Source: Sphingomonadales bacterium (GTDB taxonomy: Bacteria; Pseudomonadota; Alphaproteobacteria; Sphingomonadales; Sphingomonadaceae). Taken from it: a DNA stretch of 64,000 nucleotides. The notes under the pieces were generated by a model that searched no databases, had not been told where the DNA came from, and worked only from the letters and a program-made list of their open reading frames with translations. The stretch lies in contig JANXVZ010000037.1 in assembly GCA_025351405.1 (NCBI GenBank), positions 1-64,000 of the forward strand, given 5' to 3'. Position numbers and translations under genes: made by a program. Of the stretch, positions 7,041 to 9,322 are shown one piece after another. The number at the start of each line of letters is the position of its first letter. Within the stretch, counting starts at the first letter, position 1.

Positions 7041-7157
7041 GTAACGCGTGTTTTTGCAGCGTAATTTCTGTTATGCTCGCGTTACGACTCGTCGATAACG
7101 ATTTGTTAATAATCGCCGACGAGTAATAAAAAACGCCAAGGGTTGCAACGTAACGCG
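7041..7157. promoter_or_regulatory. Cluster of three GTAACGCG motifs (two direct, one inverted)
   Basis: GTAACGCG at 7041-7048 and 7150-7157; CGCGTTAC (reverse complement) at 7078-7085; immediately upstream of the Cys-ladder gene. Confidence 0.5.
7087..7124. repeat. Inverted repeat in the leader/promoter of the Cys-ladder gene
   Basis: ACTCGTCG(ATAA)CGATT ... AATCG(C)CGACGAGT; outer 8-bp arms perfect (7087-7094 / 7117-7124). Confidence 0.6.
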
Positions 7158-7206
7158 CGCCGGCATCACCGCCAGCGCGTTCGCTGCTATTTCTTGGGAG
7201 AGAACA

Positions 7207-9288
7207 ATGAGCAATGGTATCGAAGCGTCTGACGTCGCAGCCGATGTCAGCAGTGGCGGTATTGCCGTGGCGCGGCTCGCGCAGAACGCCGATCTGTTCA
7301 ACATCGCGATCAAATCCTTTCGCGGCTACCAGGGCGAGGAATGGGCGCGGACGCTCAACAAGGCGCAGTTGCTCGTTTCCTGCCACCGCATCTGCGAGTG
7401 GGTATGCAGCAAGGAATGTGTACGGCTGTGCATTTTGCTGGCCGGGCCGCCCCGCGAGCCGGTTACGATCGAGCAGATCGGGCCGTTCACGGACGTGCTG
7501 CGCCGGCTGGCGGAAAATCCCAAGCTGATCGCCGTGCTGGCCAAGGCGGTGGAGGCGGAAGACCCCAAGGCCTTTTATGCCGTCGCCACCGAATTGAAAG
7601 CGCAGGCCTTTATCCACCTGCTCTGCCACTGGGTGTGCTTCATCCGTTGCCACCTTGTTTGTCGGGTGATGTGTGACCGCCTGCACTGGAACCCGGAAAT
7701 CCTCATCACCGCGCTGCGTGAATCCGCCGTCGCGGTCGCCAGCGTGGGCCGCAACCCGGACGACTTGAAGCGGCTGATCGCCGGGGCCGCCACGCTCGAT
7801 TGCGCCGCCATCAAGGGCATCTTCGGCCCCAATCGCGATTGCCGGTTGATCTGTTTCTGGTTGTGCAGCTGGCGCTGTCTCGTCGTGTGTTTTGCCCTCA
7901 CGCGCAGCTTCCAGGTCACCAGCGATTTCTCGATCGATGAGATGCGCGCCTTTGCGACCTTCTCGGGCGAACTTTCGCGCGTCCCGGACGTGACCGGGGC
8001 GCCCGCCGCCAATGGCATCGACGCGCTTGTCAGCGCCGTCATTCGCCAGGACGAAAAGGCCTTCATCGAATTTGTCCGGGTTCACAAGGCAGAGCGCTTC
8101 GTCCACCAGCTTTGTCACTGGGTGTGTTATCTCGTCTGTCAGCGGCTGTGCATCTGCGTCTGCCCGCCGCCGGGCATCATCCCGATCTTCGACCATGTCG
8201 GATCCTATCGCGTCGATCCGTTCTTCCACGATTTCACCTCGGCGGGGACGACGACGGCGGGCGGCTATGCCTTTACCGCAACGATCCCGCTGATCGGACT
8301 ATTGCCGCCAAGTCCGGCCGGCGACCCGATCGAATACCGCTTCACGGTGCAAAAGCTGCCGGGCGGGGCGCTGCAACCGCTGACCATCAACGAGATCGGC
8401 GGCACCGTCATCGGCTCGCTGGAGTTCTGGGAATGGGATGCAACGGCGCTGCCGGCACCGGGACAATGGAAGCTGCGCACGACCGACTACAGCATCAACA
8501 ACGCCCCGCAATTCTACGATATACAACAGGACATCGGCCCGGCGCTGCACATGCAGGTATCGACCCCCATCACGGCCGATGGATGGGTGCGGGTGCCCAG
8601 CGACGACAATCTGACCCAGCATGGCGGCGGCAAGTTTGCGCCGACCCACGTGCTGGCCTCGCTCGACACTACCAAGCTGACGCTGGAGCAGTTCGACCTG
8701 CACGGTCCAGGAACCGGGCTGCCGATCATCGCCGGCGGCGCGGTGCCGGCGGGGCCGCCGCCTGCCGACAACAAACGCTCCGAAAAGCCGCAGTTCGCCA
8801 TCAATTTCGAAGCCCGCAAGGTGATCGGGGCCGTGGCGATCAGCGGCAATTCGCTGCCACGCATCGCGCTGAGCAACACCCGCTATGCCTTTGATCGCCA
8901 TCCGGATTGGGCGGGGACGACGATCACGCTGGCCAGCGGTTATCCGTTGGCGCTGCTGCTCGATATCCAGGAATTGATCGGCCATGGCTGCGACCCGCTA
9001 TCGGCAATGTCGACGCCGGCATTGCATGCGCAGTTCACGGCCTATCACCCGTATCTGGCGTCGTGCAGCGTCTATATCGAGGGGCCGGCGCCGGTGCCGC
9101 CTACGGTCAACCCGGCAATCGATGGCGCCGGTCAGGCCATTTCACCGGCGGGCGGCGAGGCGTTCACCATTACCGGCCTAAGCCCCTGCGCCTACATCCT
9201 GTGGCTGACGGCGACGCTCAACCTGACCACTGGCTATGGCGCCATTGGTGGAACGTACAGCGACCATATCGCATTCTGCATCCACTGA
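7207..9288 (+). CDS. Orphan cysteine-ladder repeat protein of unknown function (693 aa)
   Basis: Four segments with Cys at every fourth residue: C59-C75 CHRICEWVCSKECVRLC; C140-C156 CHWVCFIRCHLVCRVMC; C212-C228 CRLICFWLCSWRCLVVC; C303-C319 CHWVCYLVCQRLCICVC; helical linkers and an approx 370-aa C-terminal domain; no family recognised. Confidence 0.85.
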   Translation: MSNGIEASDVAADVSSGGIAVARLAQNADLFNIAIKSFRGYQGEEWARTLNKAQLLVSCHRICEWVCSKECVRLCILLAGPPREPVTIEQIGPFTDVLRRLAENPKLIAVLAKAVEAEDPKAFYAVATELKAQAFIHLLCHWVCFIRCHLVCRVMCDRLHWNPEILITALRESAVAVASVGRNPDDLKRLIAGAATLDCAAIKGIFGPNRDCRLICFWLCSWRCLVVCFALTRSFQVTSDFSIDEMRAFATFSGELSRVPDVTGAPAANGIDALVSAVIRQDEKAFIEFVRVHKAERFVHQLCHWVCYLVCQRLCICVCPPPGIIPIFDHVGSYRVDPFFHDFTSAGTTTAGGYAFTATIPLIGLLPPSPAGDPIEYRFTVQKLPGGALQPLTINEIGGTVIGSLEFWEWDATALPAPGQWKLRTTDYSINNAPQFYDIQQDIGPALHMQVSTPITADGWVRVPSDDNLTQHGGGKFAPTHVLASLDTTKLTLEQFDLHGPGTGLPIIAGGAVPAGPPPADNKRSEKPQFAINFEARKVIGAVAISGNSLPRIALSNTRYAFDRHPDWAGTTITLASGYPLALLLDIQELIGHGCDPLSAMSTPALHAQFTAYHPYLASCSVYIEGPAPVPPTVNPAIDGAGQAISPAGGEAFTITGLSPCAYILWLTATLNLTTGYGAIGGTYSDHIAFCIH

Positions 9289-9294
9289 GGCGCA

Positions 9295-9322
9295 CCCCCT
9301 CTCTTGCACGCAAGAGAGGGGG
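9295..9322. terminator. Strong hairpin between convergent genes (bidirectional terminator candidate)
   Basis: CCCCCTCTCTTG-CACG-CAAGAGAGGGGG: perfect 12-bp stem, 4-nt loop, between stops at 9288 (+) and 9324 (-). Confidence 0.7.

Follow-up and report, generated by a model that had tools for sequence, protein, structure and literature searches.

We analyzed a 64,000-nucleotide stretch of a Sphingomonadales bacterium genome (contig JANXVZ010000037.1, positions 1 to 64,000; hereafter, the window) and found that an open reading frame (ORF) at 7207-9288 on the forward strand, supported by homologues, encodes a protein of 693 amino acids that, judging from sequence comparisons, is a member of a rare bacterial family without annotation. 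In this family, up to 24 cysteines on four predicted helices appear to come and go as facing pairs, a pattern that suggests a new type of helical scaffold whose cysteine rungs may be disulfides or hold metal. As first described from the window alone, the protein carries four ladders in which cysteine recurs at every fourth residue, and a family alignment extends each ladder to six slots. All four lie on the forward strand at the predicted positions: ladder 1 (C59/63/67/71/75; 7381-7431), with Ala79 in slot 6; ladder 2 (C140/144/148/152/156; 7624-7674), with Ile136 in slot 1; ladder 3 (C212/216/220/224/228; 7840-7890), with Thr232 in slot 6; and ladder 4 (C303/307/311/315/319; 8113-8163), with Val299 in slot 1 and the extra C317. 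However, the total of 21 cysteines first given was too low, the correct number being 26 (20 in ladders, four in the C-terminal part, plus C199 and C317). At the DNA level, the five-cysteine ladder pattern occurs four times in the window versus 0.01 expected, a count reached in none of 100 dinucleotide shuffles, and residue shuffles of the protein produced at least one ladder in only 9 of 200,000 cases. In the whole genome there were two additional matches to the ladder pattern, on contigs 1 and 41, a number not above that of a backwards-pattern control.

The protein had been called an orphan, but this proved wrong. Homologues were retrieved by applying a DNA pattern of the ladder motif to 85,462 species genomes, and more were found by subsequent profile searches, so that the family so far includes at least nine further four-module homologues (Actinomycetota, Acidobacteriota, Chloroflexota, and Pseudomonadota) and at least three two-module cousins. 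Most of the DNA-pattern matches were low-complexity repeats; among the matches listed, homologues came from a Chloroflexi metagenome-assembled genome (MAG; L151), a Sphingomonadaceae lichen MAG (L045), Specibacter cremeus (L081), a Bryobacterales MAG (L108), a Terriglobia MAG (L141), and Solirubrobacter soli (L115). Profile searches added full-length proteins from Acidobacteriota (G814, G818, and G1842) and two-module cousins from Solirubrobacter (L267), G1049, and G1826. Two of these proteins (L081 and L115) are from isolates, and the family therefore cannot be an artefact of binning. When nine N-terminal domains (pairwise identity 27-64%) were aligned, cysteine occupied 192 of 216 ladder slots (89%), and these account for all but 13 of the 205 cysteines in the nine domains. 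Furthermore, 14 of the 26 invariant columns are ladder cysteines (p=1e-11), and the cysteine spacing is strongly constrained. Both the ladders and their conservation are observed directly in these proteins.

The slots that lack cysteine proved as informative as those that retain it. Among 138 rungs in 13 proteins, both cysteines were present in 123, both were lost in 13, and one was lost in 2, while only 1.4 double losses would be expected under independence. Loss in slot k of ladder 1 accompanies loss in slot 7-k of ladder 2, and ladders 3 and 4 behave likewise; co-lost positions are ladder 1 slot 3 with ladder 2 slot 4 (Arg with Tyr/Trp/Phe/Thr), ladder 1 slot 6 with ladder 2 slot 1, ladder 1 slot 5 with ladder 2 slot 2, and ladder 3 slot 6 with ladder 4 slot 1. 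We performed column permutations among slots for ten four-module proteins, taking the best of six pairing rules, and the antiparallel rule gave p=4e-5. It captured 12 co-lost cells, the five alternative rules captured 0-2, and i,i+4 neighbours on one helix captured 1. A tree-based count (parsimony by eye) gave ~7-9 coordinated versus 2 uncoordinated changes. The cousin L267, which lay outside the permutation set, obeys the same rule, and two proteins retrieved after the rule had been noted are also consistent with it: G1842 has a double loss that was already known, and G1826 shows no losses. Of the ten four-module members, seven have both C199 and C317 and three have neither; the two covary perfectly, and therefore every N-domain cysteine of the window protein has a partner. 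All of the co-lost positions listed follow k + k' = 7 for ladders 1 with 2 and 3 with 4, which implies antiparallel pairing, and it is statistically well supported by cysteine covariation that the ladders would work as antiparallel pairs (1 with 2, 3 with 4) with cysteine facing cysteine.

Residues that replace lost rungs resemble contact pairs (Arg with Tyr/Trp/Phe, Val with Phe). Some are ordinary core pairs, e.g., Ala/Ile and Val/Phe, as might be seen if the cysteines were simply a generic conserved core without thiol chemistry. However, in a family that spans several phyla, 89% of slots hold cysteine rather than another hydrophobic residue, and the nine sequences have cysteine without exception at 14 of the 24 slots, so this explanation seems to us highly unlikely.

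Repeat alignment showed that the N-terminal 320 residues consist of four mutually alignable repeats of ~78 residues, each comprising three short helices followed by a ladder helix. These are module 1 (residues 7-80; 7225-7446; predicted helices H7-25, H28-39, H43-52, and H56-79), module 2 (residues 88-157; 7468-7677), module 3 (residues 163-232; 7693-7902), which contains C199 (7801-7803), and module 4 (residues 243-320; 7933-8166), all on the forward strand and consistent with predicted helices. For the full protein, AlphaFold2 with seven input sequences gave a confident prediction for the N-domain only, whereas the N-domain alone, run with six sequences, is predicted to form a single compact fold (predicted local distance difference test, pLDDT, 90; predicted template modeling score, pTM, 0.89), with each ladder on one predicted helix. 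Foldseek found no similar solved or viral structure, and the N-domain model had no match in the PDB at E<=0.001. The continuous thiol face that had been proposed was not borne out, as the geometry of an i,i+4 series gives drift: on an ideal alpha-helix, a pure series of this kind drifts ~40 degrees per step and ~200 degrees over six slots. Transmembrane ladders were rejected, given that most ladders have hydrophobicity values that fall short of the usual threshold or lie close to it, and that charged residues occur mid-ladder.

The large extra domain of the original prediction is indeed present as a beta-rich C-terminal domain (residues 328-693; 8188-9285, forward strand), which was modeled with low confidence; however, it is a separable module that also occurs without ladders, i.e., behind transthyretin/carboxypeptidase-regulatory-like domains (L270 and L284). 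Conversely, ladders occur with a different, Ig-like-looking C-terminus in L267, L283, and L315. Since each part recurs without its usual partner, the ladder part and the C-terminal part are separable modules. The two-ladder variants (L267 7468-8778, L283 4443-5897, and L315 6402-7841) share a conserved CCY motif near the end of this alternative C-terminal domain. A hypothetical protein on the Salinibacter ruber plasmid pSR47 (L316 8205-9830) resembles the ladderless C-terminal-domain protein of G716 over 84% of its length.

We tentatively read the ladder protein, at slightly less than even confidence, as a helical scaffold of dithiol/disulfide rungs, a kind of extended twin-CX3C structure in which we infer the chemistry of the rungs. 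The scaffold would be built of tandem repeats and fused to the separable beta-rich domain. Ladder helices 1/2 and 3/4 would run antiparallel, slot k lying opposite slot 7-k, which would allow up to 12 cross-helix Cys-Cys rungs (10 in the window protein) in addition to the extra facing pair C199/C317. Facing thiols could close into cystines, thereby stapling the domain or storing oxidising equivalents, while soft metals could be bound in the reduced state. There is a precedent in the small Tim proteins, whose twin-CX3C helix pairs carry C1-C4 and C2-C3 disulfides in the oxidised state and bind zinc in the reduced state (PMC3759932). The ladder protein resembles the small Tims and plant alpha-hairpinins in having CX3C spacing on two helices with facing cysteines in antiparallel order, a feature seen here through antiparallel co-loss (p=4e-5), i.e., as covariation rather than structure. 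However, those proteins have two rungs, whereas the ladder protein would have six per helix pair, with ladders three helices apart; it is also bacterial, has no signal peptide that we could see, and shares no homology with them, as no such family appeared among Pfam matches. Keyword searches of the literature found no protein with six consecutive i,i+4 cysteine rungs between helices, and we know of no described example.

Several points weigh against dithiol/disulfide rungs. Ten to 12 stable disulfides would be unusual in the cytosol of mesophiles, and inspection revealed no signal peptide in any member. The pairing test used 10 four-module sequences that share ancestry, and the data that tested the rule were those in which it had first been noticed; two rungs have a single cysteine, and the number of widely conserved cysteines in the C-terminal domain is odd (three). 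No oxidoreductase was conserved near ladder genes; genes around homologues were called by a simple rule of ORFs and GC content at third codon positions (GC3), and this and the other neighbour and radical S-adenosylmethionine (SAM) absences reported here are approximate. Finally, facing thiols that bind metal in pairs would be expected to give similar co-loss.

This last point leads to the explanation that we regard as a possible and serious competitor, a cytosolic soft-metal store, most likely for Cu(I). Here, four ladder helices would line a core whose facing thiolates take up 10-20 Cu(I) or more, in the manner of Csp3 but without being related to it. The claim that the protein lacks a signal peptide was borne out for every family member by inspection, and the ladder protein is therefore probably cytosolic and reduced, in keeping with such a store. 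Its 20-24 thiol slots are near the 16-19 cysteines per Csp3 monomer (PMC10155185), His is conserved beside cysteine in ladders 2 and 4, and two-thiolate sites are also compatible with pairwise co-loss. The likeness to Csp3 (DUF326) thus extends to many helix-borne cysteines, CXXXC spacing, absence of a signal peptide, and thiol number per chain. However, Csp3 has 108-136 residues in a single four-helix bundle, while the ladder protein has four ladders in tandem 78-residue modules, ~690 residues in all; these ladders follow a strict six-slot i,i+4 pattern and show paired co-loss. DUF326/Csp similarity was absent, with no Pfam match up to E 5, and PDB sequence searches up to E 5-10 did not recover any Csp chain. 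Neither copper genes nor other conserved neighbours were recognised near homologues, and a crude scan gave no CueR/CsoR/CopY-like site. Eight of the Cu(I) sites in MtCsp3 are formed by CXXXC motifs within a single helix, and the others draw on cysteines of adjacent helices (PMC5171941). Although 8 of the 19 MtCsp3 sites are thus within one helix, co-loss in the ladder family is cross-helix and almost never involves i,i+4 neighbours, and C199/C317, off the ladder stripe, covaries as an isolated pair. Because of this off-ladder pair and the near-absence of i,i+4 co-loss, dithiol/disulfide rungs are slightly favoured over two-thiolate metal sites; the pairing suggests rungs of the former kind at least as much as it suggests a metal store.

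The database searches bear on a third chemistry. Pfam, PHROGs, PADLOC, and the PDB (by sequence or fold) gave no credible match to the ladder protein, consistent with the initial impression that its family was not recognisable, and the single NCBIfam match was HuaA (NF037972; E 0.005, 16.8 bits), which lies below the curated cutoff of 35 bits; against single modules, the best E was 0.11. In the sactipeptide huazacin/thuricin Z, Cys4/8/12/16 are joined to residues 38/34/30/26, i.e., an i,i+4 cysteine ladder (C-x3-C-x3-C-x3-C) with antiparallel register (PMC8172795). Both features are shared by the ladder protein, whose ladders might likewise be irreversibly cross-linked by a radical SAM enzyme. 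However, huazacin is a short peptide with Cys-to-C-alpha thioethers, while the facing partners in the ladder protein are cysteines rather than acceptor residues, and no leader or cleavage feature was seen. No CX3CX2C radical SAM motif was found in called ORFs beside the checked ladder homologues, the window side being covered to ~26 kb; the one match to this motif was a short ORF beside a ladderless cousin. We consider thioether cross-linking very improbable.

Other candidates were set aside. A defence or phage protein was ruled out by the absence of PADLOC or PHROGs matches, and PDB profile matches to alphaRep and designed helical proteins were dismissed as they mainly covered generic first helices and not the ladder. 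A c-type cytochrome, suggested by C-x3-C-H in ladders 2 and 4, was rejected for want of a signal peptide and because ladders 1 and 3 lack a conserved His.

The family is sparse: it was found in 2 of 348 genomes in the phylum of Solirubrobacter, 4 of 297 acidobacterial genomes, 1 of 201 in the phylum of L151, and 1 of 199 in the family of Specibacter, counts that include the centre genome and some members matching in the C-terminal domain only. Single-sequence searches of 100 relatives, 300 genomes of the order, plasmids, and phages revealed no close relative, matches at E<=1 being at chance level, and an initial protein-level scan of genome contigs yielded nothing. Viral contigs held no relative of the ladder protein, and plasmids and phages searched with other family members gave no match to the ladder part.

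In the window, the ladder gene lies between uvrC and a GST gene, on the opposite strand. These two are same-strand neighbours in many congeners, and in L286 (88% uvrC identity) they are ~70 bp apart; the other 23 genomes of the genus gave no ladder-protein match. Since all of these congeners lack the gene and uvrC and the GST gene are adjacent in many of them, the ladder gene was probably acquired horizontally, and a clean single-gene acquisition is the simplest reading. The position next to uvrC is variable in the genus; in several congeners (L287-L292), other genes lie downstream of uvrC, including long ORFs that by eye resemble GGDEF/EAL signalling proteins. No mobile element was recognised at the locus, and the GC content of the gene (63.4%) is in line with that of its surroundings (64.1%). 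In the tree, the window protein groups with the Chloroflexi protein (100/98), and the Sphingomonadaceae lichen protein groups with Specibacter and G1842.

The upstream intergenic region (7041-7206, forward strand) presumably contains the gene's own promoter. It has a ribosome-binding-site-like GGGAGAG but no sigma-70 match, and two inverted repeats, GTAACGCG (7041-7048)/CGCGTTAC (7078-7085) and ACTCGTCG (7087-7094)/CGACGAGT (7117-7124), which are possible operators. Between the convergent ladder gene and uvrC is a terminator-like hairpin (9295-9322; z -3.8) with a 12-bp stem, CCCCCTCTCTTG/CAAGAGAGGGGG, that lacks a T tract and has no second copy in the window. There was no conserved operon across ladder homologues. 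G814 alone has, immediately upstream of its ladder gene, two genes for ArsA-type ATPases and two small genes that match nothing in Pfam (L281 3419-6220). A DUF1360-like small protein follows the ladder protein in G1842 (L314 7502-7831) and the ladderless C-terminal-domain protein in G716 (L284 6637-6945), these two only.

The ladder protein may represent a new fold, a proposal that we make with some reserve: two antiparallel helix pairs with six-rung ladders of facing cysteines (24 slots) would form a cystine or metal zipper in the bacterial cytosol. This zipper would have no known relative and would have spread horizontally, joined to swappable beta-domains. If the rungs are disulfides in proteins without a signal peptide, they would challenge the rule that mesophile cytosols do not build disulfides. 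If they hold metal, the family would store it in bulk through thiolates by a second route, unrelated to that of Csp. With either chemistry, the family would provide a clear and testable map of paired positions, as well as a natural scaffold that protein engineers could use.
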